Of a DNA stretch of 64,000 nucleotides, positions 1-17,292 are shown one piece after another; within the stretch, counting starts at the first letter, position 1, and every line of letters begins with the position of its first letter. A program made the translations under genes and the position numbers. The notes beneath the pieces were generated by a model. The model was not told where the DNA came from. It saw only the letters and a program-made list of their open reading frames with translations, and did not search any database. The stretch spans positions 62,001-126,000 of the forward strand of contig JAFANP010000053.1 of NCBI GenBank assembly GCA_019232625.1, read 5' to 3'. The stretch is from Alphaproteobacteria bacterium (lineage in GTDB: Bacteria; Pseudomonadota; Alphaproteobacteria; Sphingomonadales; Sphingomonadaceae).

Positions 1-577
1 TCACCAGATCGCGCGAGGGGAGCTTCAGCAGGTTTATGTTCCGGGTGATGATGCCGCGCAGGAGGCTGTACAAGCCGGCCAGCGGGAGGTTGCCCACCAG
101 ATATTGCAGCACCAGCCCGCGGGGAAAGGCGCGGACCAGGCACATCTGGTTGGGGATCCATTCGTCGAAGATCCGCTCGTTCCCGAATTCCGCGGCGATC
201 GTGTCCCAGGTGTGGAAGCGCTGGGTGAGGAAGTGGCCGATCGTCTCGTAGTCGGCCTCGATCATGGCCGCCGAGAAGCCGGTGATCCTGTGCGCGTAGG
301 AATCGGCGAGCTTCCGCCCCGGCGCGCGCCGGGTCATCCACTGGTCGCCGGCGGCATGGAGGAAGAGCGTCAGCTCGTCGGTGGTGAGCCGGCTGAGCTG
401 CTCGCTCAACGCCGCGCGCTCCGCCTGGATCTCCGCGAGGTCGGCGGAGAGCATGACCGGGATGCGGATGGTGACGCCGGTCTCGTACTTCAGAACGTGA
501 TTGTCGGACCGGTCGGCCGGGAGCACTTCCCGGCCGTTGACGATCATCGGCAGGTCGAACGTCAGATCATCCATCAT
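1..577 (-). CDS. luxC: LuxC-like acyl-CoA/acyl-protein reductase, N-terminal part (runs off window)
   Basis: The visible 192 residues match the start of the LuxC acyl-CoA reductase family. LuxC reduces a thioester-bound acyl group to a fatty aldehyde with NADPH. The conserved stretch running into the family's N-terminal reductase region (PNQMCLVRAFPRGLVLQYL, then GNLPLAGLYSLLRGI) is clear. The catalytic Cys would lie beyond position 1 and cannot be checked. Two adjacent ATGs at 577 and 574 are possible starts, and the gene overlaps the end of the LuxD-like gene by about 10 bases, which indicates translational coupling. The order luxE-luxD-luxC on this strand gives a full fatty-acid reductase set. 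Confidence 0.8.
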   Translation of the reverse strand, partial: MMDDLTFDLPMIVNGREVLPADRSDNHVLKYETGVTIRIPVMLSADLAEIQAERAALSEQLSRLTTDELTLFLHAAGDQWMTRRAPGRKLADSYAHRITGFSAAMIEADYETIGHFLTQRFHTWDTIAAEFGNERIFDEWIPNQMCLVRAFPRGLVLQYLVGNLPLAGLYSLLRGIITRNINLLKLPSRDLV

Positions 578-1448
578 ACATCTCGAGGTTGGCCCGGTCC
601 GCGAGGTCCATGCGCTGCGCCTCGGCGGCGGCGATGATCTGCGCGAAGGAGGGCTCGACGATCTTGTCCGGATCGGCGCCGGTGGCGCGAAGGCACTGGC
701 GAACCGCGCAGTTGAAATAGGCGGTCGCCAGCACCGGGTTGCGGTAAAGCTGGTGGGTCGCCGCCTGGATGGCGATCACCTCGACGGACCGGCCGCCGCG
801 GGCCGCCTGCGAGGCGACCTTCCTCACGTCTTCCATGTTGACCCAGGGGTCGTCGGTGCCGGCGATGAAGACGATGGGCCGCCGGCAGCGAAGCAGGTCG
901 GCCACGGTATCGGCGGGCTCGACCAGATCGTGCTCGATGCTGTCGTTGACGAACACCTTGTCGACCTCATAGCCCAGCACGAGGTTGCGGTCGGGAAATT
1001 CCTCGCCGCTGCGCACGATCCGGACGAGGTCGACGCCCATCACCTCGCGCAGAGTGTATTGAAGGTCAACGACCGGCGTGATGAGGACGACCGCGCGCCA
1101 ATCGTCGCGGCCCGCAAGCGCGCGCATGACCGCGCGCGACGAAAGGCTGATGCCCAGGACTACCGCCCCCGGGCAGAGATCGAGCACCGCCGCGGTGTCG
1201 ATCGCCAGCTCCGACAGGCGGAAGGCTTCGATGGAGCCGGTGCTCCGTCCGGGATGGTTGCGCGGGTCGAAGCGATAGACCCTGAGGCCGTTCAGAGTCA
1301 TGAGATAGGCGGTCGAGAACAGCCGCTCGGCGCTCATTCCGAACGGCGGCACGATGAGGACCGTGCCGCGTTCCTCGCCGGCCGGACGGTCGATCGTGAC
1401 GACCAGCTTGTCCGTGCCTAGGGTGAGGGTGAGCTCTTCGTCGTTCAT
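567..1448 (-). CDS. luxD: LuxD-like acyl transferase (alpha/beta hydrolase)
   Basis: This 293-residue protein resembles LuxD, the thioesterase that releases fatty acids from acyl-ACP or acyl-CoA for the fatty-acid reductase complex. The nucleophile elbow GISLSSR near residue 101 corresponds to the ASLS motif of LuxD. An acid-bearing FIAGTDDPW loop and a late His in ATHQLYRNP complete a plausible triad. An in-frame open frame continues upstream inside luxE, but the ATG at 1448 gives a normal LuxD N-terminus and sits 17 bases after the luxE stop. It is cytoplasmic, with no signal peptide. A generic alpha/beta hydrolase is the alternative, but the luxE and luxC neighbours make LuxD much more likely. 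Confidence 0.82.
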   Translation of the reverse strand: MNDEELTLTLGTDKLVVTIDRPAGEERGTVLIVPPFGMSAERLFSTAYLMTLNGLRVYRFDPRNHPGRSTGSIEAFRLSELAIDTAAVLDLCPGAVVLGISLSSRAVMRALAGRDDWRAVVLITPVVDLQYTLREVMGVDLVRIVRSGEEFPDRNLVLGYEVDKVFVNDSIEHDLVEPADTVADLLRCRRPIVFIAGTDDPWVNMEDVRKVASQAARGGRSVEVIAIQAATHQLYRNPVLATAYFNCAVRQCLRATGADPDKIVEPSFAQIIAAAEAQRMDLADRANLEMYDG

Positions 1449-1465
1449 CGTCCCGGTCCCGCCCG

Positions 1466-2617
1466 CTAGGCTCCGATGGTTTGCAGTTTGAGCGCGCAGC
1501 CCCGGGACTCGATCCGGTTCACCCTGCGCTCGAACACGACCACGTCGCCGGTTATCCCGCAGGGACATTGCTTGCGCTGGACGACGGTCCCGAAATCGTC
1601 GCTCAGTATGAACCCGGGATAGCTCAGCGGCGTCGGGTCCAGGAAGGAGAGCAGGCCGGGCTGGCCGCTGGGCATCGCCGCGAGCGTGCGCGGGTCGCGC
1701 GCGAGCACGGTGATCCACGGCGGGCTGTGCTTCGCCTTGAACGCGCACTCGAACAGCACGGTGTTCAGCTCGACCATGTTGTAGCTGTCCCGTATCGGCG
1801 CCGTGTCGGGAAAGCCGAACGCGGCGGCCAGCCGCTCGTCGAAGACCGTGCGGTCGATGATCTCGTTCTCGCGGCGCTTCCAGCCGCCGATCGCGATGAT
1901 CAGGGATTTCGGGCTCAGCCTGAGCGGGCCGCGCGCCTCCAGATATTTCGCCAGGTCGAGGAGCAGGGGCGGCGGGCCGACGATGTTCACACCCTCGTTC
2001 TCCGGAACGGCCGCGAGGTCGGCGACGATCTCCTTCATCGCCAGGACGTCCCTGCGAACATAGGATCGCGTGGTGTACAGGACGCCGACGCCGGCCATGA
2101 CATAGGAGACCCAGACGTTGGGGGCGTCCCGGGTCGCGGGCGTCAGGTCGAAGACCTGCCGGTCGAAGGTCTCGACGCCCAGCACCTCGCGCTTTCCGAT
2201 GGCGACCGACGCGAAGAACCGCTTGAGCGTCACATCGTCGCGAGGAACCACGGAGACCGTGCCCAGGGTTCCGCTGCTGGTGGTGAGGATGACCTCGTCC
2301 TGCCCGGAGCCGGTGCGGATCGCCTGGTCGCCGCGCTTGAAAAGGCCGGTCGACAGCAAGGGTATGGTCGCGAGATCGGCCGCGCTGCTCAGGCGGTGGC
2401 TTCCGAACCCCAGGCTCTCGCAATATCGATCATAGGCTGGATTGTGCTGCCGGTGATGATCGACCGCCTGGCGTGTAAACCTGAGCCTCAGCGCGTCGAT
2501 CGCATCGGCATCCTTGTTGCCCAGCTGGTAGATCTCGTCGGTGCCCAGGATCGTATCGAGGGGATCAATGTCTTCGATCACGCTTTCTTGGAGCGAGATC
2601 TCATGCAAGTCCGTCAT
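1466..2617 (-). CDS. luxE: LuxE-like acyl-protein synthetase
   Basis: This 383-residue protein belongs to the LuxE acyl-protein synthetase family, which activates a fatty acid with ATP and passes the acyl group to LuxC. The adenylate-forming signature TTSSGTLGT lies at residues 112-120, and a CPC pair near the C-terminus (RKQCPCGITGD) is visible. The ATG at 2617 overlaps the TGA of a possible 40-codon leader ORF and has no obvious Shine-Dalgarno sequence, so translation may be coupled or weak. It is the first enzyme gene of the leftward arm, downstream of the candidate precursor peptide and a hairpin. No luxAB is present, so the aldehyde or acyl product probably serves biosynthesis rather than light. 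Confidence 0.83.
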   Translation of the reverse strand: MTDLHEISLQESVIEDIDPLDTILGTDEIYQLGNKDADAIDALRLRFTRQAVDHHRQHNPAYDRYCESLGFGSHRLSSAADLATIPLLSTGLFKRGDQAIRTGSGQDEVILTTSSGTLGTVSVVPRDDVTLKRFFASVAIGKREVLGVETFDRQVFDLTPATRDAPNVWVSYVMAGVGVLYTTRSYVRRDVLAMKEIVADLAAVPENEGVNIVGPPPLLLDLAKYLEARGPLRLSPKSLIIAIGGWKRRENEIIDRTVFDERLAAAFGFPDTAPIRDSYNMVELNTVLFECAFKAKHSPPWITVLARDPRTLAAMPSGQPGLLSFLDPTPLSYPGFILSDDFGTVVQRKQCPCGITGDVVVFERRVNRIESRGCALKLQTIGA

Positions 2618-2736
2618 TTATCTGCAGACAAGCTGGTGCCCGACGACCGACGCCTCACGCGACTCGAACCGAGGGAGTATTGCAACGAGCCGTTGCAGGT
2701 GGAGACTGCGACATTCGGTCGAGCAGATCGTTCCAT
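2614..2736 (-). CDS. Possible 40-codon small ORF overlapping luxE start
   Basis: An ATG at 2736 opens a 40-residue frame (MERSARPNVAV...) whose TGA overlaps the luxE ATG as ATGA. It is rich in Ser and Arg and has one Cys at residue 14. Its ribosome-binding site is poor. The tight overlap could reflect translational coupling to luxE, or the frame may be chance in GC-rich DNA. I assign no function. It is unlike the acidic 45-residue peptide upstream except for the shared MER start. Confidence 0.2.
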   Translation of the reverse strand: MERSARPNVAVSTCNGSLQYSLGSSRVRRRSSGTSLSADK

Positions 2737-3119
2737 GCTGACTTAACCCACCCCGTCTCGGCCGCTGCCAACGACATGATCGTCGCATGACTCCCGGCCC
2801 GAATCAAGAATGCCTCGGGAAGGCCGGGAGATCGACCGAAGGATTTGCGGCGCGGGCCGCTTTTGGACCGGCTGTTGTCTGGAGAACGCGGCCGAGTCGC
2901 CGGACCGGGCGCGACTACCACAGGATTACCGCCAAGAGGGCGCGTGGCCCTGCAGCGCGTCTTGCAAGAGGCGCGGCGTGCGCTCGGCGCCGGATCGTGC
3001 GGGAGGGCCCGTCGCCGCTCCGGGAGGGGCCGGAGCGGGGGCTCTTCGCAGGATCCGCCTGCAGGGATGCTTGGCGCCTGATCGAACAGGGGCTGCGAAA
3101 ACGAGAACAGAATCAAAAT
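2737..3119. other. Stretch with no supported gene
   Basis: About 380 bases between the luxE leader and the hairpin downstream of the candidate precursor. The frames that are open here on both strands encode low-complexity Arg/Pro/Ala-rich products with no domain and no good ribosome-binding site. If the upstream hairpin is read through, this would be a long untranslated leader for luxEDC. Nothing else is supported. Confidence 0.5.
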
Positions 3120-3160
3120 CCGGCCGGTGACGCTACAATCATGTAGGCGTCACCAACCGG
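3120..3160 (-). terminator. Terminator or attenuator between precursor peptide and luxEDC
   Basis: GGTGACG and TACA arms (3126-3137) pair with TGTA and CGTCACC arms (3142-3154) around a four-base ATCA loop with one bulged base. An outer CCGG/CCGG pair extends the stem. Reading leftward, the stem is followed at once by a T-rich run (ATTTTGATT). It begins 35 bases after the precursor stop codon. A partial terminator here would give far more precursor transcript than enzyme transcript, as is common in RiPP operons. The function is inferred. Confidence 0.6.
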
Positions 3161-3194
3161 ACGATGAAGACCGGCATTCAAGCCAAAAGTCTTA

Positions 3195-3332
3195 TCAGCA
3201 TTCCTGCAGCAAGGCGGGAACGAACAGTTCTTCTTCCACAAGAACGAATTCGTTCTGCGTCGTCGCCACTTCGTTCGAAGCCGCTTCGCTGTCTTCGATT
3301 TTGATGCTGAGCTTGTCGTCCATTCTTTCCAT
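3195..3332 (-). CDS. Candidate RiPP precursor peptide, 45 residues, C-terminal Cys
   Basis: A 45-codon gene that begins MERMDDKLSI and ends LLQEC. It has a strong Shine-Dalgarno sequence (AAGGAG, eight bases before the ATG at 3332). It carries 12 acidic residues against 3 basic ones, an acidic polar first half, a Glu-Glu-Glu run at residues 33-35, a hydrophobic end and a single Cys as the very last residue. A sigma70-like promoter lies about 130 bases upstream and a hairpin just downstream. It opens the leftward arm of a locus with an E1/ThiF enzyme and two SagB-type oxidoreductases. This is what a leader-plus-core RiPP precursor looks like. Being the peptide substrate is inference. A small regulatory protein is the alternative. 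A second in-frame ATG at 3323 is possible. Confidence 0.6.
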   Translation of the reverse strand: MERMDDKLSIKIEDSEAASNEVATTQNEFVLVEEELFVPALLQEC

Positions 3333-3460
3333 AGTCTCCGCTCCTTACCATCCCGCTGGCGTGCGAGATCCCTCATCGGCATAAAAGCTCGGCCTTCGGC
3401 CGTTCTGGTCTACGAAAGTTCCGAACTCTTGAACGTGTGATCGCTGAGAACCCTACCCAG

Positions 3461-3489
3461 TCTTTACAACGAGTGCGCGCTGTGGTCAA
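3461..3489 (-). promoter_or_regulatory. Putative sigma70-type promoter for the precursor peptide
   Basis: Read leftward, TTGACC (3484-3489) and TAAAGA (3461-3466) are separated by exactly 17 bases and would start RNA near 3454, leaving a leader of about 120 bases that includes the hairpin CGGCCGAAGGCCG. The 3333-3598 gap is clearly less GC-rich than the rest of the window, as expected for a divergent control region. For the rightward operon only a TATAAC hexamer at 3562-3567 stands out, without a matching -35. Confidence 0.45.
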
Positions 3490-3598
3490 GTGGCGCAGGG
3501 GCAAAGCTATATGCTTGGTAAGGCCCAACTTTATGGCGGTCTAACAAACGGGCAATTGCAGTATAACATGCACTATTAAGTGGTTGGAGGGGCGAAGA

Positions 3599-5281
3599 GT
3601 GAGACATCCATGGGAAGACTCCTATCCTCAAGGACTCTCCTGGTCGTTGCCGATCCCTCCCGCCCCGCCATTACAAGACGCTCTTAAAACAGCGGCAGAC
3701 CGTTGGCCGGAAAGACATGCAATAGACTTCTATGACTATGAATTAACCTTCCGAGAACTGGACGACTTGGCGCGCAGAGCGGCTAAAGGTCTTCGCGACT
3801 TGGGAGTTGAAAGAGGCACGCATGTCGGTCTCCACCTGGAGAACACGCCTCACTTCATCATCTGCTTCTTCGGCGTGTTGTACGCGGGCGGCACAGTGGT
3901 CAATTTCAACCCGCAAGCCGGGTCCCATGAATTCGTCGGGCAGCTCGTGGACTCGCAAGTAAGACTGGTCGTCTCCGGCGACTGGCAGGGCGATTTCGCG
4001 ACGACCAAGAGGCTCGCCGCCGAGAATGGAGTCGGTCTCATAGGCTGCAGCCTGAGCGATTTCCTGCCCCCGGCGGCGGTGGCGGGGTTGATCGACAGGG
4101 CGCTGCGCGAATGGTCGTGCGGCGAGGCCGAACAACGCTTCGCCGACTTGATCGCGAACGACGGCGCGCTCGATGCCGCGGCGGGCGGGCAAAGCGAGAG
4201 CGACGTCGCGGTCCTTCAATATACGGGCGGGACCACCGGTGAACCGAAGGGGGCGATGCTGACGCACGCCAATTTCTTCGCCGTGCTTTACATGCTCCTT
4301 CTGTTTACTGGCGGCGGCTTCAACGAACGTCAGTACAAGATCCTGTGCGTCCTGCCGCTGTGGCACGTCTTCGGCCTGACCTTCATCCTGCTGAGGTCGG
4401 TGATGACGGGCACCGAGATGGTGCTGCACCTTCGGTTCGACGCCGGCCGGGTCCTGTCGGACATCTCACGCAAGAAGGTCACCGCCTTTTCGGGCGTCCC
4501 CGCCATGTATGCCGCGCTGGTCAATCATTCGAGGTTCCTGACGGAGGACCTGACCTCGGTGCTCAGCTGGACCTCGGGCGGCGCGCCGTTCCCGGCGGAG
4601 CTGAAGGCGCAGTTCGAGCAGCGGGCGCGCGTCGACATCTACGAAGGTTATGCGCTGACGGAAACGGCCGGCATCGCCGTCCAGGCGCTGACGCCCGACA
4701 AGCTCGGCACCTTCTGCGTCGGCCTGCCGGTCCCCAACACGCTCGTCGAGATCGTCGACATGGAGACCGGAACGAGGCTCCTGCCGCCCGGCGAGCATGG
4801 CGAGATCTGCATTTCGGGGCCCCAGGTGATGAAGGGCTATTGGAGGAGGCCGGACGAGAATGCCGCCGCCTTCGAAGGCGGGCGCTTCCATACCGGCGAC
4901 GTCGGCTTTCTCGACAAGAAGGGGTTCGTGACGGTGCTCGACCGGAAGAAGGACATGATCCTCGTCGGCGGGCATTGCATTTATCCGCGCAACGTCGAGC
5001 GGGTGCTGAACGAGCATCCGGCCGTCGAGGAGGCGGCGGTGGTCGGCGTACCCAATCCGGATTTCGGCGAGGTCGCCCATGCGTGCCTCGTGCTCCGGCC
5101 CGGGCACAATCCGCCGACCCAGAGGGAATTCTACGCCTTCCTCGCCGAGCGGCTCTCGACCCACGAGATCCCGTTGAAGTTCCAGTTCCTCGACGCTCTG
5201 CCGAGGACGGCTGCCGGGAAGGTGAAGAAGAGGGAGCTCTCCGCGAAGGATCGAGACGTGACGGCGGGACGCGCGGCCTAG
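3599..5281 (+). CDS. Acyl-CoA synthetase (AMP-forming)
   Basis: Adenylate-forming enzyme that would activate a carboxylic acid, probably a fatty acid, as an acyl-CoA. It shows the family motifs in order: the ATP loop YTGGTTGEPKGAML near residue 210, the GYALTETA motif, HTGDVGFLDKKG with the DRKKDMI hinge, and the C-terminal catalytic Lys in PRTAAGKVKKREL. The GTG at 3599 is chosen over an in-frame TTG at 3584 because GGAGGGG lies seven bases upstream; it gives 560 residues, normal for long-chain acyl-CoA synthetases. It is the first gene of the rightward arm. The first few hundred bases are less GC-rich than the rest, consistent with the nearby promoter or with acquisition. Confidence 0.85.
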   Translation: MRHPWEDSYPQGLSWSLPIPPAPPLQDALKTAADRWPERHAIDFYDYELTFRELDDLARRAAKGLRDLGVERGTHVGLHLENTPHFIICFFGVLYAGGTVVNFNPQAGSHEFVGQLVDSQVRLVVSGDWQGDFATTKRLAAENGVGLIGCSLSDFLPPAAVAGLIDRALREWSCGEAEQRFADLIANDGALDAAAGGQSESDVAVLQYTGGTTGEPKGAMLTHANFFAVLYMLLLFTGGGFNERQYKILCVLPLWHVFGLTFILLRSVMTGTEMVLHLRFDAGRVLSDISRKKVTAFSGVPAMYAALVNHSRFLTEDLTSVLSWTSGGAPFPAELKAQFEQRARVDIYEGYALTETAGIAVQALTPDKLGTFCVGLPVPNTLVEIVDMETGTRLLPPGEHGEICISGPQVMKGYWRRPDENAAAFEGGRFHTGDVGFLDKKGFVTVLDRKKDMILVGGHCIYPRNVERVLNEHPAVEEAAVVGVPNPDFGEVAHACLVLRPGHNPPTQREFYAFLAERLSTHEIPLKFQFLDALPRTAAGKVKKRELSAKDRDVTAGRAA

Positions 5282-5321
5282 CCGGCGCGACGACGGGAAG
5301 GCGGAGAGCGGTGACGAGGCA

Positions 5322-6986
5322 ATGAGTCGCAGCGGGGGGAATGGCTCGGTGAACGAATTCGACTACGTCGTGGTAGGCGCCGGCTCGGCCGGCTGCATAT
5401 TGGCGGCGCGGTTGAGCGAGGATCCGGCCAACAGCGTCCTGTTGCTGGAGGCGGGTCCGGCGGAAGAGAATTTCGCGATGCGTGCGCCCGCCTTGTTCTA
5501 CGTCCTCCAGCGCTCTCGCTTCGACTGGGCCTATCGCACGGAGCCGCAGGGCGCGGTCGACGCGCGGCGCATGTCCCTGCCGGCCGGCCGGGTGCTGGGC
5601 GGGTCGAGCGCGATCAACGCCGCGCTCTACGTGCGCGGGCACAGGTCCGATTATGACGACTGGCGGGACTCGGGCAATCCGGGCTGGGGCTGGGAGGACG
5701 TCCTGCCCTATTTCAAGAAGTCGGAGCGGCAGGCGCGCGGCGCCTCCGCCTGCCACGGCACCGACGGACCCATCCAGGTCGCGGACCAGAGCGAGGTCGC
5801 GCCCAGCACAGCCGCGTTCGCGAAGTCGGTTGCGGCCGTGTTCGGAGTGCCGATCGTCGACGATTTCAACGGCGGCGATTCGACCGGAGCGGGCTATTTC
5901 CAGGTTACCTGCCGCAACGGCCGGCGCTCGAGCGCCGCCTCGTTCATCCGCGAGGTGCGGACAAGGCCGAACCTCGAAGTGCGCACCGGCGCCGTCGCGA
6001 CCGGGATCGAGATCGGCGCGTCCCGCGCCACCGGGGTCCGGCTGCGGACCAAGGCGGGCGACGAGACCGTCAAGGCGCGGCGCGAGGTGATCCTGGCGGC
6101 GGGCGCCATCGGCTCGCCCCGCCTGTTGATGCTCTCCGGCATCGGACCCGCCGCGCATCTGCGCGAGGTCGGCATCGACGTCAGGCTCGATCTGCCCGGG
6201 GTCGGCCGGAATTTGCGCGACCATCTCGGCTATCCGCTGTCGTACGAGGCCGCCTCGGGCAGCGCGCCGCACTACAGCCTTCCCGCCTCGCTGCGCTGGA
6301 TCTTCAACTACATGGTGAGCGGCGGGGGAGGGCCGCTGGGGCGCTCCTACATGGAAGGCTGCGCCTTCGTGCGGACCGACCCGGGCCTGGAGCGGCCCGA
6401 CCTCCAGATCCACTTCGCGCCGTGGAGCAGCCTCGAGCCCAATCTGGACGAGAAGCGGGATCTGAAGCGCGGGCGCGGCTTCACCTTGTTCCCGACCCTC
6501 CTATACCCGCGGAGCACGGGCGAGATCCGCCTGGCCTCGCGCGATCCCCTCGCGCCGCCCCGCATCGATCCGCGCTATCTCTCCTGCGAGGAGGATCTGC
6601 GGGTGCTCGCCGAAGGGGCGAGGCTGGCGCGGCAGGTCGCCGGGACCGGGCCGCTGGCCGCCTGCGCGCTGCGCGAGGTCGCCCCCGGGCCGGGGGTCGC
6701 GAGCGGCGAGGCGCTCGCGGCGGACGTGCGCGCCAGGGCCAATTCCTTTTTCCATCCGGTCGGCACCTGCAAGATGGGGGTGGATCCGGGAGCGGTCGTC
6801 GATCCCGAGCTGCGCGTGCGCGGCATCGACGGCCTGCGCGTCGCCGACGCCTCGATCATGCCCGCCATTCCCGGCGGCAACACCAACGCGCCGACGATGA
6901 TGGTGGCGGAAAAGGCGGCCGATCTGGTGCTGGGAAAGACGGCCGCGCCGCGCCTCGTCCGAGTCAGGGAGGAGGCGCTTCGATGA
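5322..6986 (+). CDS. GMC-family FAD-dependent oxidoreductase (alcohol dehydrogenase-like)
   Basis: A 554-residue glucose-methanol-choline oxidoreductase. The FAD-binding fold opens with DYVVVGAGSAG near residue 13, followed by the signature GRVLGGSSAINAALYVRG and the second signature GAIGSPRLLMLSGIGP. The catalytic His lies in HPVGTCKMG and the second active-site Asn in GGNTNAPTM. Family members oxidise alcohols to aldehydes. A GTG at 5349 with a G-rich upstream stretch is an alternative start. The stop overlaps the next ATG (ATGA). With luxCDE opposite, it may adjust the alcohol/aldehyde state of a lipid intermediate; the substrate is unknown. Confidence 0.85.
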   Translation: MSRSGGNGSVNEFDYVVVGAGSAGCILAARLSEDPANSVLLLEAGPAEENFAMRAPALFYVLQRSRFDWAYRTEPQGAVDARRMSLPAGRVLGGSSAINAALYVRGHRSDYDDWRDSGNPGWGWEDVLPYFKKSERQARGASACHGTDGPIQVADQSEVAPSTAAFAKSVAAVFGVPIVDDFNGGDSTGAGYFQVTCRNGRRSSAASFIREVRTRPNLEVRTGAVATGIEIGASRATGVRLRTKAGDETVKARREVILAAGAIGSPRLLMLSGIGPAAHLREVGIDVRLDLPGVGRNLRDHLGYPLSYEAASGSAPHYSLPASLRWIFNYMVSGGGGPLGRSYMEGCAFVRTDPGLERPDLQIHFAPWSSLEPNLDEKRDLKRGRGFTLFPTLLYPRSTGEIRLASRDPLAPPRIDPRYLSCEEDLRVLAEGARLARQVAGTGPLAACALREVAPGPGVASGEALAADVRARANSFFHPVGTCKMGVDPGAVVDPELRVRGIDGLRVADASIMPAIPGGNTNAPTMMVAEKAADLVLGKTAAPRLVRVREEALR

Positions 6987-7990
6987 GCGACATGCTGCCT
7001 GCGCCTGGAAACCTGCACCGGTGGAGCGGTTACGAACCGTCCGATCCGAAGATCATCGCCCTTTATGCCAAGGGCAAGGCCCTGCAGTGGAATGCGGACG
7101 TGGATCTGGACTGGGACCAGCCCGTCGATCCCTCGTCTCCGCTGCACGCCGCCGCCTTTCCCTTGCTCGATTTGCCCATCTTCCAGCGCCTCGGCGCCGC
7201 GGATCTCGACCGGCTGACGGCGAAGCTCACCCGCCTCACGCTCTCGCAGATCATCCACGGCGAACAGGGCGCCCTCATGGTCGCCTCGCGACTGGTGAGC
7301 CTCGCTCCCGACTATGAAGCCAAGCTCTATGCGGCGACTCAGACCGTCGACGAGGCGCGGCACGTCGAGATATTCGGCCGCTACCTGAAGCGTTGCGGCG
7401 GGATCGTGCCGCTTGCGCCCGGCTTCGGCGCCTTCCTCGACAAGGTGATCGACGCCGATTCCTGGCTCAACATGATGATCGGCATGCAGATCATCGTCGA
7501 AGGCGCCGCTCTGTCGTCGTTCCACACCTATCGCCGACGGGCGCGCGAGCCGCTCCTGTCCAGCATCCTAGACCGAGTCATCCGCGACGAGGCGCGCCAT
7601 GTCGGCTTCGGATCGACCTATCTGCGCAATACGCTGGGAGACATGTCGGACGACGAGAGGGAGGGGCTCGCCGATTATGCCTACGACGCGGTGATGCTGT
7701 TCGCGCGCACGCGCCGCGAATCCTTCCGCCAGAGCGAGGTCTTCCTCAACGAGTTCGGCTTCACCCTGGACGAGGTCCTGCGCTCCGCCGCCGCGCGGCT
7801 CGAGAGCGGCGGGGCCGCGCTTGCCGATCCGGCCCGCGACGGGATCACCGAGTTCATCCTGCCGACGCTGACCCGGCTCGGCGTGCTCACCGACCGGGTG
7901 AAGGAAAAGTTCGCGAGCGCGCGCCTGCCGCCAATCATGGCGAGCAGCCTGCTCGACGAGCTCGACATGCTGACCGTGGCAAGCAGCTAG
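6983..7990 (+). CDS. Ferritin-like diiron oxygenase candidate
   Basis: A 335-residue helical protein with the four-helix diiron pattern: a first Glu in HGEQGA, a first E-x-x-H in DEARHVEIF, a third-helix Glu in IVEGAALSSFH and a second E-x-x-H in DEARHVGFG. This set of ligands is shared by ribonucleotide reductase R2-like, AurF-type N-oxygenase and aldehyde-deformylating oxygenase families; I cannot assign it to one by eye. Its start overlaps the GMC stop as ATGA, and FAAL follows nine bases later, so it is co-translated. A fatty aldehyde, an acyl carrier-bound chain or the peptide could be the substrate. Confidence 0.7.
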   Translation: MSDMLPAPGNLHRWSGYEPSDPKIIALYAKGKALQWNADVDLDWDQPVDPSSPLHAAAFPLLDLPIFQRLGAADLDRLTAKLTRLTLSQIIHGEQGALMVASRLVSLAPDYEAKLYAATQTVDEARHVEIFGRYLKRCGGIVPLAPGFGAFLDKVIDADSWLNMMIGMQIIVEGAALSSFHTYRRRAREPLLSSILDRVIRDEARHVGFGSTYLRNTLGDMSDDEREGLADYAYDAVMLFARTRRESFRQSEVFLNEFGFTLDEVLRSAAARLESGGAALADPARDGITEFILPTLTRLGVLTDRVKEKFASARLPPIMASSLLDELDMLTVASS

Positions 7991-7999
7991 GAGGATAGC

Positions 8000-10024
8000 G
8001 TGCGGTCACCGCGGACCTTGTTCGATCTCCTGCAGGGAAGGGCGTCCGACTCTCCCGAGAAGGGGTTCAGGTTCACGCGCGACGCCGCCGTCACGGACTC
8101 CCTCACCTTCGCCGGGCTGGACCGGGCCGCGCGGGCGATCGCGGCGGCCCTCGTCGAGGGCGGCGCCGCCCGGGGGGCGCCGGCCTTGCTTCTGTTCCCG
8201 CCGGGGCTGGATTTCGTCAAGGCGCTGTTCGGCTGCTTCTATGCCGGCGTGGCGGCGGTACCCGCCTATCCCCCCAATCCCGGCCGGATCAAGCGCAGCA
8301 TGGCGCGCCTCGGCGGGATCGTCCGGAGCTGCGCGCCCCGCATCGTCCTCTGCACCTCCGAGCTGCGCGGCACCGCGGACGCGATGGTTTCCCATGTGCC
8401 TGAGCTTCAGGACGCGACCTGGATAGAGATAGACGCGCTGCGAACGGATCCGGACGGTTGGCGCCCCTTGCCCCTGGCCCCCGACGACCTCGCGATCATC
8501 CAATATACTTCGGGTTCGACCGGCGAGCCGCGCGGGGTCATGGTCACGCACGGAAACATCCTGCACAACCAGCAGCTCATCGCGGAGGCGTTCGGCAGCC
8601 GGGAGGGCGCGGAAGTCGTGGTGTCGTGGCTCCCGGTCTATCACGACATGGGCCTGATCGGGACGACGATCCACCCCGTCTACCTCGGCGGCGAGTGCGT
8701 CATGCTGGCGCCGCTGGAATTCCTCCAGAGCCCGTACAAATGGCTTGCGGCGATTTCCAAGTTCGGCGGCACCATGGCCGGAGCGCCGAATTTCGCCTAC
8801 GATCTTTGCACGCGAAAGATATCCGACGAGCAGCTGTCCTCGCTGGACCTGTCCAGCTGGCGGGTGGCGTTCTGCGGCGCCGAGCCGGTCCACAAGGAGA
8901 CGCTCGAGCGTTTCGCGACGCGATTCTCGCAATGCGGCTTCCGGCGCTCCGCCTTCCTCCCCTGCTACGGCCTCGCCGAGGCGACGCTGATCGTCTCGGG
9001 CGCATCGCGGCCGGAAGGCTTCGTCGCGTCCGCGGTGGACGTCGCCGCCTATCGCGCCGCCCGGCTGACGGCGTCGCGGGGCGAGGGGCCGTCGGTCGTC
9101 GGATGCGGTCCCGCGGTCGGCGGTCAGCAGCTCCTCGTCGTGACGGACGGCGCGCCCAGGGCGCCGGGGGAGGTGGGCGAGATCTGGGTTCGCGGGGACA
9201 GCGTGGGCCGCGGCTATTTCAACGATCCCGCGCAATCGCGCGAGACGTTCGAGGCGAGGCTCGCGGACGGAAGCGGGCCGTTCCTCAGGACAGGCGACCT
9301 CGGCGCGCTCGACTCCGATGGCGAGCTCTACGTGGTGGGCCGGCTCAAGGATCTGTTGATCGTCCGCGGCCTCAATTATTATCCCCAGGACATCGAAAGG
9401 AGCCTCGAAGCGGCCCTGCCCGCCGCGAGGCAGGGCTGCTCCGTCGCCTTCGCCGTCGAGGAGGGCGATGGCGAGAGCCTCGGGGTGCTTCTGGAATACG
9501 ATCCCCGCGCAAGCCGCGTAGAGGTCGACTGGAACGCGGCGGTGGAGGCGGTGCGCACCGCCATTGCCGCGGACCATGACCTTGCCGTCCGGACGGTGCT
9601 GATCGCCGCCGCCGGGGAAGTGCCGAAGACGTCGAGCGGGAAGGTGCGACGCAATGAAACGCGGCGCCGGATACTCGCCGGCGAGGTAAAGTTGCATCAC
9701 CGGTGGGATTCCGCCGCGGCCGCTGCGCCGATTCCAAGTAAGCTCACCGGGCGTGGTGAGCAGGAGATAGCCGAATTCATCGCTTCATGGTTGTCCAGGG
9801 CGTTGGGGCGGGCGGTCGGCGTCGACGCGGTATTCGAAGAGGTCGGGCTTGACTCGCTCGATGCGGTGCGCCTCACTCAGGCGGTGGGGAGGGAGCTTGG
9901 CCGGGAACTCAGTCCGACTCTCGCGATGGATTTCCCGACTATCGGCCTGCTTGCGGGGCACTTGGCATCGTCTTTGCGCCGCGAGCTCGTGTCGATGATT
10001 CCGAACGATGGCGCAGGTGACTGA
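8000..10024 (+). CDS. Fatty-acyl-AMP ligase fused to an acyl carrier protein
   Basis: A 674-residue fusion. The first ~580 residues are an adenylate-forming ligase of the FAAL type: YTSGSTGEPRGVMVTHGN and the FAAL-like VSWLPVYHDMGLIG motif. The last ~80 residues are a carrier domain whose DSL motif (EEVGLDSLDAVRL) provides the Ser for the phosphopantetheine arm. FAALs load fatty acids as acyl-adenylates onto carriers without CoA. The GTG at 8000 follows a clear AGGAGG. It thus provides a tethered fatty acyl chain to the cluster, and its carrier could be a substrate for LuxD, the diiron protein or a condensing step not seen here. Confidence 0.87.
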   Translation: MRSPRTLFDLLQGRASDSPEKGFRFTRDAAVTDSLTFAGLDRAARAIAAALVEGGAARGAPALLLFPPGLDFVKALFGCFYAGVAAVPAYPPNPGRIKRSMARLGGIVRSCAPRIVLCTSELRGTADAMVSHVPELQDATWIEIDALRTDPDGWRPLPLAPDDLAIIQYTSGSTGEPRGVMVTHGNILHNQQLIAEAFGSREGAEVVVSWLPVYHDMGLIGTTIHPVYLGGECVMLAPLEFLQSPYKWLAAISKFGGTMAGAPNFAYDLCTRKISDEQLSSLDLSSWRVAFCGAEPVHKETLERFATRFSQCGFRRSAFLPCYGLAEATLIVSGASRPEGFVASAVDVAAYRAARLTASRGEGPSVVGCGPAVGGQQLLVVTDGAPRAPGEVGEIWVRGDSVGRGYFNDPAQSRETFEARLADGSGPFLRTGDLGALDSDGELYVVGRLKDLLIVRGLNYYPQDIERSLEAALPAARQGCSVAFAVEEGDGESLGVLLEYDPRASRVEVDWNAAVEAVRTAIAADHDLAVRTVLIAAAGEVPKTSSGKVRRNETRRRILAGEVKLHHRWDSAAAAAPIPSKLTGRGEQEIAEFIASWLSRALGRAVGVDAVFEEVGLDSLDAVRLTQAVGRELGRELSPTLAMDFPTIGLLAGHLASSLRRELVSMIPNDGAGD

Positions 10025-10025
10025 T

Positions 10026-11192
10026 ATGGCCGAGCCCGGCGATACTTCCGAACGCACGATCCAGCTCAGCCCCGCGGCGCGGATCGTTCCGCCCTCCTTC
10101 CTCTCCAACGACCAATGGGCGGTGGAGACCTATATCGGGCCCAAGCGATGGAAGGCCTCCGTGCCGGCGGTCATGTTGCTGCTCGCCTGCACCGAGGCCC
10201 AGTCCCGCGAGGCCGTGCTCGACCGGGTGGAAAGCCTGACGCTGGCGCCGCGCGACAATCTCGAGTCGCTTCTGGCGGACCTGGAGCGATGCGGGCTGGT
10301 GGTCGGCGCCTCGGAGGCGTCGCAGGCGAACGGCGAGGTGGCGGTCGGGCGCGAGATCCAGCAGACCTGGGCGCGGGCGAACTGGTCCGAAGCCGCGGAA
10401 TACCATCTCTCCACGCTCGACTATCCGTTTCCGGACTATTCCACGAACGGGCGCCAGATCGATACCGAGCGGATGCGGGGCTATATCGCCGAGGAGCAGG
10501 ATGAGGACCGGTACAAGCGGATAGACGCGGTCGACCGCATTGCGCTGCCGATACCCGACGCGTCGCTCCTCGACGTCCCGTTCGGCGCGGCGCTTCGCAA
10601 CTATGTCGATCCCGATCCTTCGAAGGACGCACCGGTCGTCGACGGCGACGTCGTCCGCAACCTGCTCGCCATGACCTTTTGCGAAGTGGGGCGGATAAAG
10701 GGCGGCCGGTGGGCGCGCGCGCCGATGGTGCGGCGCACCAGCCCGTCCGGCGGCGGGCGCCATCCTTCCGAGGCCTATCTGCTCGTGATCGACGTTCCCG
10801 GTCTCGCGCCCGGCTGGTACCATGTCGACGTCGCCCCCCCGCAGCTCTCGCTGATGCGGGAGGCGAGGTTCAGCGATTCCGAGCTGCGGGAGCTGTTCCC
10901 GCTCGGCTACGGACGGGCGCCGTTCGAGGTCAAATGCCTGGTCGCGCTGACGACGATCTTCGAGCGCAACATGTATCGCTATCGCGAGCCGCGGACGTTC
11001 CGGACGGTCCACATGGATATCGGCCACCTCGCGACCACCCTCGGCCTGGCCGCCGCCGCCGAAAGCATCATGAGCCACGTCGCTTATGCCGACGACGAGG
11101 CGGCGATCGAGCGCAGCCTCGGGCTGGACGGCCTGGACGAGGGGTACATGCTGACCGTGTCGCTCGGGGTTCCGGCGAAGGACGCAGGGTAG
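10026..11192 (+). CDS. SagB-type nitroreductase-like dehydrogenase, first copy
   Basis: A 388-residue protein. Residues 1-90 form a predicted helix-rich N-terminal domain, and the rest is a flavin-dependent nitroreductase-fold domain of the SagB/McbC thiazoline-oxazoline dehydrogenase type, recognisable by RRTSPSGGGRHPSEAYLL and the later PGLAPGWYHVD. Family members oxidise azoline rings in RiPPs, although related domains act on other substrates. The ATG at 10026 is chosen because AGGTGA lies just upstream; an in-frame ATG at 10008 would overlap FAAL and lacks a ribosome-binding site. No YcaO cyclodehydratase is nearby, so the usual SagB substrate is not obviously made here. Confidence 0.78.
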   Translation: MAEPGDTSERTIQLSPAARIVPPSFLSNDQWAVETYIGPKRWKASVPAVMLLLACTEAQSREAVLDRVESLTLAPRDNLESLLADLERCGLVVGASEASQANGEVAVGREIQQTWARANWSEAAEYHLSTLDYPFPDYSTNGRQIDTERMRGYIAEEQDEDRYKRIDAVDRIALPIPDASLLDVPFGAALRNYVDPDPSKDAPVVDGDVVRNLLAMTFCEVGRIKGGRWARAPMVRRTSPSGGGRHPSEAYLLVIDVPGLAPGWYHVDVAPPQLSLMREARFSDSELRELFPLGYGRAPFEVKCLVALTTIFERNMYRYREPRTFRTVHMDIGHLATTLGLAAAAESIMSHVAYADDEAAIERSLGLDGLDEGYMLTVSLGVPAKDAG

Positions 11193-11203
11193 ACGAGGGG
11201 GCG

Positions 11204-12283
11204 ATGGGAATGACCGGAATCGAGAATCGGGAAAACTGGTTGCCTCTTCTCAGCATCAGGCCGAGCTCCGGCCGCCAGATCGTCTTCAGCGACGCCCTCA
11301 ACCGAAGGCGCGCCGCCGTCGATTCGAACGTCCTGCTCGAGCATCTGGCGGCGCGCTATCGCGGCTCCCCCTCCGGCGACGGCAGCCGCAAGCTTGCCGA
11401 CAAGCTCGCCGAGCTCGGCTGGTTCCCGCCGGCCCCGGTCGAGGCGGGGGTCGTCGACCGTATCGCCCACTGGTGGAATCGCGGCTGGACCTCGTCGCTG
11501 CGCTATTACCTCTGGTCGAGGGGCCGGCCGCAGGTCGACGCGAAGGACAGCACGGGCGAAGTTCGCCGCGCCGTCATCACCGGATATCTGAACGAAAGCG
11601 AGGCGCCTGCGAGACCATCGTTCGACTCGCTTCCGGTGGTCGAGCTGCCCGAGCCGAGCCCGCTTCCGGAAGACGTGACGGTCGGGCAGGCGCTGATGGC
11701 GCGGCGGAGCGTTCGCGCCTACGCGCGCCACCCGGCGCCGGCGCAGGTGCTGTCCTCGGTCCTGTGGAACGGCCTCGCCAACGTGCGGCAGCGCCAGCAG
11801 CGCATCCCCAAGACGCCGATCGACTATCTGCGCTCCTACGGAATTGCCTTCGACCTCCACGTCGCCGTGTTCGACGTCGAGTCGATCGAGCCCGGGATCT
11901 ACCGGTACGACATGGTCGATCACCGGCTGCTCCGGCAGCGGGCCGGCGATTATCGCGAGGAGGTCACGTCGATCCTGGTCGGCATGCAGAGCCCGATGAC
12001 GGCGAGCTGGACCCTGGTGATATCGGCCGACATACCGCGCTATCAATGGCGCTACCGCCACGAGCATGCGCTCCGCAACCTGTATATCGGCTCGGGCCGG
12101 GTCGCCCAGCTCCTCATCCTGCTGGCCCAGGCCTACGGCTTCGGCAGCGTCCCCACCCCGGCGATGCACGATACGACCTGCTGCGAGCTGTTCGGGATGG
12201 ATCCGGCGAGCGAGGTCCCGCTCTACACGATCACGACCGGTCCGATCTCGAGCGCGCGCCTTCCCGAGGTGCAGCATGCCTAG
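11204..12283 (+). CDS. SagB-type nitroreductase-like protein, second copy
   Basis: A 359-residue protein with a poorly conserved first ~130 residues and a nitroreductase-fold second half beginning with the flavin phosphate-binding RRSVRAY. It lacks the PSGGGRHP motif of its neighbour and carries SYGIAFDLHVAV instead, so the two are paralogues that have diverged and may form a heterodimer or do successive oxidations. A CC pair (HDTTCCELFG) lies near the end. ATGs at 11204 and 11210 are both possible; the second has better spacing from GAGGGGG. Its end overlaps the ThiF-like start by eight bases. Confidence 0.72.
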   Translation: MGMTGIENRENWLPLLSIRPSSGRQIVFSDALNRRRAAVDSNVLLEHLAARYRGSPSGDGSRKLADKLAELGWFPPAPVEAGVVDRIAHWWNRGWTSSLRYYLWSRGRPQVDAKDSTGEVRRAVITGYLNESEAPARPSFDSLPVVELPEPSPLPEDVTVGQALMARRSVRAYARHPAPAQVLSSVLWNGLANVRQRQQRIPKTPIDYLRSYGIAFDLHVAVFDVESIEPGIYRYDMVDHRLLRQRAGDYREEVTSILVGMQSPMTASWTLVISADIPRYQWRYRHEHALRNLYIGSGRVAQLLILLAQAYGFGSVPTPAMHDTTCCELFGMDPASEVPLYTITTGPISSARLPEVQHA

Positions 12284-13400
12284 CGAGATATTGCGGCTGC
12301 AGTCGAGCTACTCCTACCTCCCCGTCGACGAGGACAGGCTGGCCGTCGTGTCGACGGTGCTTCAACGGCGGGTGACGCTGCGCGGGTCCCGGGACCGGGT
12401 GGCGCGCGCCCTCGATGCGCTGGCGGGCGGCGTCGATGCGGAGCGCGCCGCCGACGCGGTCGCCGAAGCGTCGGGCCTGAGGCGCGACGAGGCGGAGCGG
12501 CTTGTGGCGGAGCTGCAGCAGGCGGCGATCCTGGTGAAAAGGCGCGCCGAGAACGACGTGTCGTCGCTGGACGGCAAGTCGCTCTACGACAGGCAGATAC
12601 GCTTCCTGAGCCTGTTCGAATCGCCGGGGTCGTCCGGGATGGAGCTCAACCGCAGCCTCCAGGATCGCAAGGTCGTCATCCCCGGGGTCGGCGGAACGGG
12701 CGGGTGGATAGCGTTGATGTGCGCGCGGATCGGCATCCGCAACATCGTCGTGATCGACTGGGACGAAGTCGAGCTGAGCAACCTCCACCGCCAGATCCTG
12801 TACGAAAGATCCGATATCGGACGCTCGAAGGTCGAGGCGGCCTCGGGACGATTGTCGGGGATAGACGACGACGTCCAGGTGACCGGCCACAATCTGTTCA
12901 TCGAGCGAGCCGAGGATGTCGAGCCGCTCTTCCGCGGCGCGGACCTGGTGTTCAACGCCTTCCCGCCGTTCGACGGCAATTTCGCCGTCGGCGCCGCCGC
13001 GATCGCACGCGCCGCCCTGCAGGCCGGGGTACCGTGCCTGCAGAGCCCCGCCGCCCAATGCGTCGGACCGCTGACCATCCCGGGAAAGACCGCGTGCCAG
13101 CGCTGCGCGAGGGACGTGCTGGAGGCGAATTTCAGCTACGCGACCAAGGTCGTTCCGTCCCTCTATAACGCCGGTTTCGTGGGCGCGATCTCGCCGCGCC
13201 AGGCGATCACCAGCGGCCTCGCGGTCTGGGAGGCGGCGCGGTTCCTGTCGGGGATGGACCGGCCGCCGACGCTCGACGGGACGGTGCGGATCGACATAGC
13301 CGGCTATGCGAACCACGAGTTCATCCCGATCGCGCGGCGCTTGGATTGCGAGGAGTGCGCAAGCTACGCCGCGACCGGCGCGGATCAGATGCGGGCGTAA
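12276..13400 (+). CDS. E1/ThiF-like adenylating enzyme with N-terminal peptide-binding-like domain
   Basis: A 374-residue member of the ThiF/MoeB/E1 superfamily, which adenylates carboxylates, typically the C-terminus of a protein or peptide. Residues 1-100 resemble the winged-helix leader-binding region found in RiPP E1-like enzymes (inferred from size and position). The nucleotide fold has GVGGTGG, then VIDWDEVELSNLHRQ with the adenylation Asp and Arg, and SKVEA. Zinc-binding pairs CQRC and CEEC are present. MccB, PaaA of pantocin A and TOMM cyclodehydratase C-proteins are known relatives in peptide biosynthesis. It is co-translated with the SagB pair and is the strongest candidate to act on the 45-residue peptide. 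Confidence 0.82.
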   Translation: MPSEILRLQSSYSYLPVDEDRLAVVSTVLQRRVTLRGSRDRVARALDALAGGVDAERAADAVAEASGLRRDEAERLVAELQQAAILVKRRAENDVSSLDGKSLYDRQIRFLSLFESPGSSGMELNRSLQDRKVVIPGVGGTGGWIALMCARIGIRNIVVIDWDEVELSNLHRQILYERSDIGRSKVEAASGRLSGIDDDVQVTGHNLFIERAEDVEPLFRGADLVFNAFPPFDGNFAVGAAAIARAALQAGVPCLQSPAAQCVGPLTIPGKTACQRCARDVLEANFSYATKVVPSLYNAGFVGAISPRQAITSGLAVWEAARFLSGMDRPPTLDGTVRIDIAGYANHEFIPIARRLDCEECASYAATGADQMRA

Positions 13401-13468
13401 CGTGCTGCTTCGGGCGGGGCCTACGCCGGCGGGCGCGGGGCGCGGCGGGCGGAGTTGAGAGGGCGATC

Positions 13469-14851
13469 ATGGGCACCAAGTGCGAGTTCATGAGCGATGC
13501 GTGGCTTGCGATGGTCGAGGAGACCGCGAACGGCCTTCTCGCCCAGGCCGGCAAGCCCGCCGCCGCGAAGATCGACCTCACATTCGTCGAAATCTACGAA
13601 CGCGCTCCGCCCGAGGCGGCCGCCTGGGGCGAGCCGGCCTGGACGCTGCGGATCGAGCAGGGCCAGGCGCTCGTCACCCGAGGCGCGGCGCCGCGGCCGG
13701 ACCTGGCGCTGACGATAGGGTGGGACGATGCCGCCCGCGCCGCGCTGATCGTCGACGACCGCATACGCAAGGCGGACCAGACCCAGAGGATGATGGACGG
13801 CCGCATCTCGATCGCGGGCAATCCGGCCGGCGTGCCCGCGTCTCTCCTGGGGGCGCTACGCGGCAGGATCGCGCCGCGTACGGTCGTCACCACGACCGAT
13901 CTCGCCAATGCCTCGGGCGTTCCGATCCGCAGGACCGGGTGGGACCTCGCCGAGCTCCCCCAGCCGACCGACGACCCCGGGGAGGTGGTCGCGGACGTGC
14001 GGAAATGGGGCTACGGCATCCTGGCGAACGTCCTCTCCGACGAGGAGGTGGGCCGAATCCGCGACCGGCTGAAGGAGCAGGCGGAGCTCGAGATCGAGCA
14101 TGAGGTCGCCTGGCTCGGCAATGGCGGGCGCGGCGGCAACACCTGGCTCGGCGGCCTGCGCGGCGGCGAAACGGCGCCCTGGCAGGGCGTGCGGACGCTG
14201 GTCAACAAGGGGCGAGTCTTCATCGATCTCGCCATGCACCCGAAGATCCTCGCCTGCATGCGGGGCATCTTCAACTATATGGACTTCTACCTCGGGAGCA
14301 CGAACGGCCTCATCCTGCGCCGGAACGCCGAGGCGATGGTCGTGCATTGCGACCAGCAATACGTCCCCTGCACCACGCCGATCCCGTTCGCGGCCAACGT
14401 GATGGTGACGTTGAGCAACTTCACCGCGGAGAACGGCGCGACCCGCATGGTCCCGGGCTCGCACCGGGGCCCCGCCCCGCTCTGGACGCTCGACCCCAAG
14501 GTGATGGACAACGTCAATCCGGAGCCGATCGAGACGGTGCCGGCCACCTGCCCGGCGGGTTGCGCGATCTTCATCGACGGGCGCCTCTGGCACAGCTCCG
14601 GCGCGAGCAGCTCGGACGAGACCCGCTATTCCGTGACCACCTATTACACGCTGCCCTTCATCCGGCAGGCGGAGCTCTATCCGGTCAGCCTGCACGACGA
14701 CGTCTACGAATCGCTCTCGCGCGAGGAGCGCGCCATGTTCGGGTTCAAGAGCTACGGCGCCCTGGGCCGCATCGACGCCCGCGCGCAAGGCGGCCGCGGC
14801 AACGTCGACGCATCCTATCCCTATGTCCCGGAGCTGCGGCGCGGGACGTAG
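13469..14851 (+). CDS. SCP2-like domain fused to phytanoyl-CoA dioxygenase-family oxygenase
   Basis: A 460-residue fusion. Residues 1-130 resemble a sterol-carrier-protein-2 lipid-binding domain (TLRIEQGQALVTRG, ADQTQRMMDGRISIAG). Residues 150-460 are a PhyH-type Fe(II)/2-oxoglutarate oxygenase with the HxD metal motif in VVHCDQQY, the distal His in RLWHSSG, and the oxoglutarate-binding Arg in DETRYSV. The ATG at 13469 follows a GAGAGGG site; upstream residues of the longer frame look non-coding. The gene follows the ThiF-like gene by 68 bases. A ThiF-like enzyme paired with an Fe(II)/oxoglutarate oxygenase also occurs in pantocin A biosynthesis. Its substrate here, lipid or peptide, is unknown. 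Confidence 0.8.
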   Translation: MGTKCEFMSDAWLAMVEETANGLLAQAGKPAAAKIDLTFVEIYERAPPEAAAWGEPAWTLRIEQGQALVTRGAAPRPDLALTIGWDDAARAALIVDDRIRKADQTQRMMDGRISIAGNPAGVPASLLGALRGRIAPRTVVTTTDLANASGVPIRRTGWDLAELPQPTDDPGEVVADVRKWGYGILANVLSDEEVGRIRDRLKEQAELEIEHEVAWLGNGGRGGNTWLGGLRGGETAPWQGVRTLVNKGRVFIDLAMHPKILACMRGIFNYMDFYLGSTNGLILRRNAEAMVVHCDQQYVPCTTPIPFAANVMVTLSNFTAENGATRMVPGSHRGPAPLWTLDPKVMDNVNPEPIETVPATCPAGCAIFIDGRLWHSSGASSSDETRYSVTTYYTLPFIRQAELYPVSLHDDVYESLSREERAMFGFKSYGALGRIDARAQGGRGNVDASYPYVPELRRGT

Positions 14852-14904
14852 CGGTTCCGCCACGACGCCCGGCGTTTGGCGAGATCCTTTCACCCGCCTC
14901 GACT

Positions 14905-14918
14905 AATACGATGGTCTG
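14905..14918 (+). promoter_or_regulatory. Weak copy of the CATACC/TATG motif
   Basis: AATACGATGGTCTG matches a consensus-like CATACCATGGTATG at 11 of 14 positions and lies 88 bases before the epoxide hydrolase start. A CAGAAT follows after 24 bases, which is longer than the 17-18 seen at the strong sites. Low-confidence member. Confidence 0.3.
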
Positions 14919-15006
14919 ATTGTCGCACGGGTCACCCGACCCCAGAATTGCACCTGTCCGAGGAAATGGGCGGAGCCCGGTGCGCGCTCCCTTCGCGGAC
15001 GGGAGA

Positions 15007-17247: not shown

Positions 17248-17292
17248 GTGCGTCAACGTAATTTCACAACGCCTTGGGTGGGAGAAGACGGC

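Follow-up and report, generated by a model that had tools for sequence, protein, structure and literature searches.

The stretch analyzed here (the window) comprises 64,000 nucleotides of contig JAFANP010000053.1 (positions 62,001 to 126,000; assembly GCA_019232625.1) from an alphaproteobacterium of the Sphingomonadaceae with a genome of 3.6 Mb. At its left end, two divergent gene arms around one control region form a cluster whose sequence points to a modified peptide, possibly carrying a lipid, of a kind not yet described and of the type of ribosomally synthesized and post-translationally modified peptide (RiPP) that is made with a ThiF-like enzyme. Our tentatively favored reading is a biosynthetic hybrid with a RiPP module at its core, in which a precursor gene, a ThiF-like adenylyltransferase, and two SagB-type flavoenzymes are joined to a fatty acid module to yield a lipidated product. 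The RiPP part of this reading is fairly well supported; that the lipid, the output of an adjacent nonribosomal peptide synthetase (NRPS), and the peptide end in one product is what we infer. The genes, their motifs and spacing, and the recurrence of the SagB1-SagB2-ThiF triad with a related peptide are read from the DNA, while the reactions, their order, and the joining of lipid to peptide are proposals.

The preliminary description of the window inferred a RiPP but missed a short peptide gene, which is predicted in the divergent control region. It is a 45-codon open reading frame (ORF) upstream of luxE and on the luxE strand, with the ribosome-binding site TAAGGAGCGG; its product is MERMDDKLSIKIEDSEAASNEVATTQNEFVLVEEELFVPALLQEC, with the C-terminal end NEFVLVEEELFVPALLQEC. 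Within the control region, no other sequence has as good a coding signal as this ORF. When the 653 open windows of 138 bases between positions 2618 and 3583, in all frames, were ranked by GC content at the third minus the second codon position (strand and register taken from the printed index), five of the top six were in register with it. The gene occurs as a single copy in the genome (search at E ≤ 10), and its product had no match in NCBIfam. Terminator-like hairpins are found on its strand both before (3390-3402) and after it (2812-2824), a number within chance (two observed, 1.1 expected), and a promoter scan returned no sites.

Evidence that this gene and the triad belong together comes from another phylum. 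On plasmid pTHTHE1601 of Thermus thermophilus SG0.5JP17-16, genes for SagB1, SagB2, and ThiF are adjacent and in the same order as in the window, and their products are 39-41% identical to those of the window over 79-96% of the query (SagB1, 39%; SagB2, 39-40%; ThiF, 39-41%). The gene directly upstream of that triad, on the other side of the record's origin, has 52 codons, the ribosome-binding site AAGGAGGTG, and the product MFEERQDVRLVDNNRGAIVEAEVSLVEGDELVIQELEPFDLALVQGCGDIAQ. The window and Thermus peptides are reciprocal best matches among 420 and 208 short ORFs, with a score of 38 and next-best scores of 29 and 30. From Glu28 to Cys45, nine of 18 residues are identical, following the pattern E.V..E.E.F..AL.Q.C. 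The RiPP inference of the preliminary description gains support here, in that ThiF and both SagB proteins are accompanied by a related peptide gene. If true, a module of ThiF, a double SagB, and a peptide common to a proteobacterium and Thermus would represent a new RiPP logic. The Thermus locus differs from the window in what surrounds the triad: a MATE exporter gene lies 3' of it together with a gene for a protein of weak, below-cut-off similarity to DUF885, and the annotation of the two stretches covered (15 and 12 kb), the gene table of which is incomplete, lists no lux, FAAL (fatty acyl-AMP ligase), NRPS, YcaO, or carrier gene. Among plasmid records, nine matched ThiF and 20 matched SagB1 with all rows counted; two appeared in both lists, one being a Nonomuraea record in which the two matches are 4.5 Mb apart.

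The preliminary description named a ThiF-like E1, and the nearest solved relatives of this protein, PaaA and MccB, are enzymes that modify peptides. A profile of the two ThiF proteins compared with PDB sequences ranked MccB (E = 4e-29) and PaaA (9e-26) ahead of ThiF (3e-21) and MoeB (2e-20), and the window sequence alone retrieved PaaA first. A housekeeping role of the MoeB or ThiF kind was rejected on this ranking. ThiF-like RiPP enzymes adenylate a carboxylate that a nucleophile then takes over, as in PaaA, GrcB (which forms a Glu-Cys thiolactone), EnfB, and IndF, whereas MccB instead acts on a C-terminal Asn; the portions of these sources available to us name only a handful of such reactions, those of microcin C, pantocin A, grc, enterofaecin, and indolylamide (PMC12250964, PMC12150305).

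In the favored reading, the 45-residue precursor would be bound via N-terminal domains of its enzymes that resemble the RiPP recognition element (RRE), and ThiF would adenylate a carboxylate in the acidic C-terminal half of the peptide, most likely that of Glu33 or Glu35, both of which are conserved. Once activated, this residue could be attacked by the thiol of Cys45 to give a GrcB-like Glu-Cys thiolactone, or by the backbone in the manner of PaaA. With Glu33, Glu35, and Cys45 all conserved, the most direct guess is either such a thiolactone or a ring derived from Glu. The two flavoenzymes would next dehydrogenate the ring or residue formed, and the S9 peptidase encoded to the left, which resembles the lasso isopeptidase and Dpp5 models (both below cut-off), is a candidate protease.

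The best-described relatives of this scheme each match it in part. Pantocin A (PaaP, PaaA, PaaB, and PaaC) likewise has a short precursor with an acidic stretch, a ThiF-like enzyme that is the nearest solved relative by single sequence, and an Fe(II) oxygenase gene in its cluster, although no SagB pair, lipid genes, or NRPS genes are described for it in the portion seen of that source (PMC12250964). A common Glu-Glu pair is also missing, since the window precursor reads EEE where the Thermus peptide reads E-L-E at the aligned place. For the GRC-type RiPPs (GrcA, GrcB), a ThiF-like enzyme and a thiolactone from Glu to a Cys on its C-terminal side would fit the conserved Glu and Cys, but the spacing from the conserved Glu to the Cys is 10-12 residues in the window peptide rather than the four of GrcA, and SagB, FAAL, and Lux genes are not mentioned for grc in the same partly seen source (PMC12250964). 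Should the proposed product hold, its fatty group on a ribosomal peptide would recall the acylated lanthipeptides known as nostolysamides; these use a lanthipeptide synthetase, according to the part of the report consulted (PMC13060382), and the proteins tested here included no such synthetase. The open-access literature searched held no description of such a cluster (most subscription papers fall outside that search), nor did the passages seen of a RiPP paper featuring SagB and ThiF (PMC12710340).

Other features separate the window genes from the thiazole/oxazole-modified peptides (McbBCD, SagBCD), although an E1-like protein and SagB-type flavoenzymes are common to both. SagB enzymes are known mainly as azoline dehydrogenases acting after YcaO. 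Here, no YcaO family member was found among the cluster proteins run against Pfam (a search that did not extend to the remainder of the genome), ThiF is PaaA/MccB-like, and both SagB proteins score below the NCBI curated cut-off. The Lys in the FKYRYRGYR motif of McbC, presumably important in that enzyme, aligns with Arg in both SagB1 proteins and with Arg or Leu in SagB2.

An RRE is likely present in SagB1, as judged from a predicted structure and a profile comparison. The model of its N-terminus contains three strands followed by three helices at residues 31-94 (mean pLDDT 47.5, low confidence), which we take to be the RRE plan, and comparison with a profile of 13 PqqD segments gave 46% for SagB1 against less than 0.5% for each of seven control pieces. 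The corresponding elements in ThiF and SagB2 are unproven; a poor single-sequence model of ThiF (mean pLDDT 37) places helices at 39-50, 55-66, and 70-96. With the SagB1 model as query, Foldseek returned ThcOx and McbC, and first of all BmdC, which is an NRPS-module-bound oxidase. This order lends something to the idea that SagB and ThiF tailor carrier-bound NRPS or acyl intermediates in a BmdC-like manner and that the small gene encodes an unrelated short protein or a regulatory leader, as would a peptide outside NCBIfam with modest similarity to its Thermus counterpart. We consider this improbable, given that the Thermus triad and peptide gene stand together without annotated NRPS, FAAL, or carrier genes in the stretches covered and that ThiF is nearest to peptide-modifying enzymes.

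On the lipid side, the reductase set LuxCDE appears from alignments to be complete with its key residues. LuxC (E = 2e-65 to 7xc6_A) and LuxE (E = 3e-49 to 7xc6_E) match over most of their length, and LuxD matches 1THT (E = 1e-15). The LuxC Cys, the Cys in the LuxE tail, and the LuxD Ser, Asp, and His align with positions in 7xc6 and 1THT to which we assign catalytic roles. All three proteins of the luminescence fatty acid reductase are present with aligned key residues, but the order is E-D-C, the genes lie beside peptide and FAAL genes, and luxAB were not found among the proteins tested. In the hybrid reading, a fatty acid would be loaded by the FAAL with its acyl carrier domain and oxidized by the PhyH oxygenase and the AurF-like diiron protein, LuxCDE could reduce it to the aldehyde, and the final product would be lipidated. 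If the lipid arm does act on the peptide, LuxCDE would serve a purpose besides light production.

The diiron protein raises a different possibility, in which alkanes or some other free lipid are the output of the lipid arm and the LuxCDE-derived fatty aldehyde is deformylated by this protein. Its similarity to aldehyde decarbonylases is weak (best E = 3e-4 among PDB sequences; 23.2 bits in Pfam). AurF is the only Pfam family above its cut-off and the decarbonylase model is not, and alkane synthesis was set aside on that basis; it would also leave ThiF and SagB unexplained, and we regard it as very improbable. AurF-like relatives occur in 18 of 117 other related genomes, and the two of these 18 neighborhoods that were read held no other cluster match.

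A more serious competitor for the lipid genes lies to the left of the window, where motifs in a large NRPS give the domain order C-A-T-C-A-T-C (condensation, adenylation, carrier) and no thioesterase was found in it by family match or motif. Its second adenylation domain, when read by eye against the GrsA positions rather than by a tool, gives DFWNIGMVHK, the threonine code. A FAAL with a carrier domain and an NRPS lie within one region, as expected for an NRPS lipopeptide started by a FAAL. These genes may represent two neighboring pathways, the lipid genes (FAAL-ACP, acyl-CoA ligase, diiron, PhyH, and LuxCDE) serving an NRPS lipopeptide (an acyl chain plus two residues, which LuxC/LuxE perhaps reduce to the aldehyde) and the triad with its precursor being a separate RiPP system that landed in the operon. 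The TubC docking domain, the free carrier protein, and the lack of a detected thioesterase would suit such a pathway, as would the triad standing alone in Thermus. The same holds for the habitual role of FAALs, usually starters of polyketides and nonribosomal peptides according to the passages seen of a review in which LuxE, LuxC, and aldehydes do not figure (PMC11837247). Against it, the triad is apparently cotranscribed with the diiron and FAAL genes, the precursor gene shares its strand with the lux genes and has its presumed enzymes on the opposite arm inside the lipid operon, and the NRPS lies beyond a convergent gene pair. On balance, two separate pathways seem unlikely. A three-way hybrid is similarly doubtful; in it, ThiF and the SagB pair would remodel a ribosomal peptide, without YcaO, into an unusual core or building block, and this would be joined to an acyl chain started by the FAAL, either via a fatty aldehyde derived from LuxCDE or by the last condensation domain of the NRPS. 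We know of no natural product whose synthesis combines the machineries of RiPPs, NRPSs, and Lux-type fatty acid reductases.

The distribution of the modules bears on whether they form one system. A Priestia megaterium plasmid carries genes for a FAAL, an FAD oxidoreductase, a carrier protein, LuxE, an iron-sulfur scaffold, and a cysteine desulfurase in a row (L024:5783-11715), and in Ponticoccus LuxE occurs with a carrier protein, an AMP ligase, and LuxC, the triad not being there. LuxE-type genes were found in five of the 117 other relatives; LuxC was present in three of the five neighborhoods fetched, and none of the five had a ThiF or SagB match. The window thus combines separable modules: the Thermus stretches covered have the triad but no annotated lux or FAAL genes, and LuxE sets occur without the triad in Priestia, Ponticoccus, and the relatives. 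The preliminary description had treated the two arms as one cluster of one undescribed class. The single cluster stands, whereas the single class is only partly supported because its modules are found apart elsewhere, which in part is the outcome named beforehand as refuting.

The triad is rare within the samples searched, which were partly overlapping draws of genomes from relatives, family, class, and phyla at strict cut-offs. ThiF searches matched two of 118 relatives (E ≤ 1e-20; the source genome and G021, whose 11.5-kb contig has no SagB match), one of 397 genomes of the family (E ≤ 1e-35; the source genome), and 13 of 398 of the phylum (E ≤ 1e-22), among which the N-terminal part matched only in the source genome and G909. 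The latter has two adjacent full-length ThiF-like genes (L043:2637-4974) on a 5.2-kb contig with no SagB match. None of 296 genomes from the phylum of a Streptomyces genome matched (E ≤ 1e-30), an empty outcome that is uninformative about absence. The SagB1 profile found four of 385 genomes of the class (E ≤ 1e-15), namely the source genome and three others at no more than 78 bits, whose fetched stretches did not match ThiF. A contig scan with two short peptide patterns retrieved five actinobacterial SagB loci, none with a second cluster match within 20 kb, which is no proof of absence, and a viral contig scan gave two weak matches.

Several observations weigh against the hybrid reading. The triad is known from two loci only, and the similarity of their peptides is modest, a score of 38 being reached by 147 and 190 of 20000 shuffles; the Thermus peptide continues for five residues beyond the Cys and lacks a Pro at the position of Pro39. 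The RRE signal is weak in ThiF (14%) and absent in SagB2 (2%) in the comparison described above, and the structure models of SagB1 and ThiF are both of low confidence. A gap of 577 bases lies between luxE and the precursor gene, which may have a transcript to itself. Elsewhere the modules are found apart, and the adjacent NRPS is a possible alternative customer of the FAAL and lipid genes.

The cluster extends beyond the genes first listed to the precursor gene, genes on the left, and hydrolases on the right (Table 1). The luxCDE, acyl-CoA synthetase, GMC, diiron, FAAL, SagB, ThiF, and PhyH genes of the preliminary description were confirmed in place with key motifs intact. Its SCP2-PhyH fusion held for the PhyH half; the SCP2 half is unproven because Pfam does not recognize it at E ≤ 1. 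From GMC to ThiF, the plus arm is one tight run (spacings of -4, 9, -17, 11, and -8 bases), and spacings of 68, 19, and 140 bases lead on to the epoxide hydrolase and the two alpha/beta hydrolases. The LuxE-LuxD-LuxC genes are separated by 17 and -11 bases; LuxC is cut by the window edge but complete in the contig (519 amino acids, L006:3018-4577). An Rfam scan of positions 1-16000 gave no match, and a DNA similarity search with part of the window found no close plasmid relative.

Table 1. Features of the cluster and its flanks (window position = L006 position - 4000; aa, amino acids).
Feature	Position	Strand	Evidence or content
NRPS, 2657 aa	L002:7583-15556, left of window	+	TubC docking, three condensation, two adenylation, two carrier domains
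Free carrier protein, 97 aa	L002:15697-15990, left of window	+	
S9 prolyl-oligopeptidase-type hydrolase	L006:50-1897, left of window	+	
O-methyltransferase	left of LuxC	-	Pfam
LuxC acyl-CoA reductase	1..577, remainder left of window	-	PF05893, 195.3 bits
LuxD acyl transferase	567..1448	-	PF02273, 59.4 bits
LuxE acyl-protein synthetase	1466..2617	-	PF04443, 192.7 bits
Proposed RiPP precursor, 45 aa	3195..3332	-	Ribosome-binding site, coding signal, Thermus match
Acyl-CoA ligase (AMP-binding)	3584..5281	+	PF00501, 294.2 bits
GMC oxidoreductase	5322..6986	+	PF00732, PF05199
AurF-family diiron protein	6983..7990	+	PF11583, 54.8 bits (cut-off 29.6); two ExxH motifs
FAAL with C-terminal acyl carrier domain	8000..10024	+	FAAL models, PP-binding; GLDS at residue 616
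SagB1, SagB-type flavoenzyme, RRE-like N-terminus	10008..11192	+	TIGR03605, 64.5 bits (below 78.4 cut-off)
SagB2, SagB-type flavoenzyme	11204..12283	+	PF00881, 45.8 bits; TIGR03605, 55.7 bits (below 78.4 cut-off)
ThiF-like (PaaA/MccB-type) adenylyltransferase	12276..13400	+	PF00899, 132.6 bits; two CxxC
PhyH-type Fe(II) oxygenase	13490..14851	+	PF05721, 74.5 bits; HxD at residue 286
Epoxide hydrolase	14920-16326	+	Pfam; possible end of plus arm
Alpha/beta hydrolases, two	16346-17107, 17248-18279	+	Pfam; possible end of plus arm

Related genes were also seen in other settings. In G021, which belongs to the same genus as the source genome, a ThiF-like protein is encoded beside an HExxH-containing membrane protein (L045:8608-11116), and a gene for a MacB-like permease, recognized by eye from translations, lies further left (L045:4695-5978). 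A plasmid of Anoxybacillus amylolyticus carries a SagB pair split by an IS630-type gene, with a third SagB-like fragment (L021:7533-13506); a 39-codon ORF with AAAGGAGGTG ahead of it lies just upstream of the first SagB gene. In G351, a SagB pair is followed by what appear by eye to be oxygenase and ABC exporter genes (L044:361-4834). In the window itself, minus-strand genes for HlyD-type and MFS proteins (18609-21451) adjoin the cluster and may be an exporter pair.

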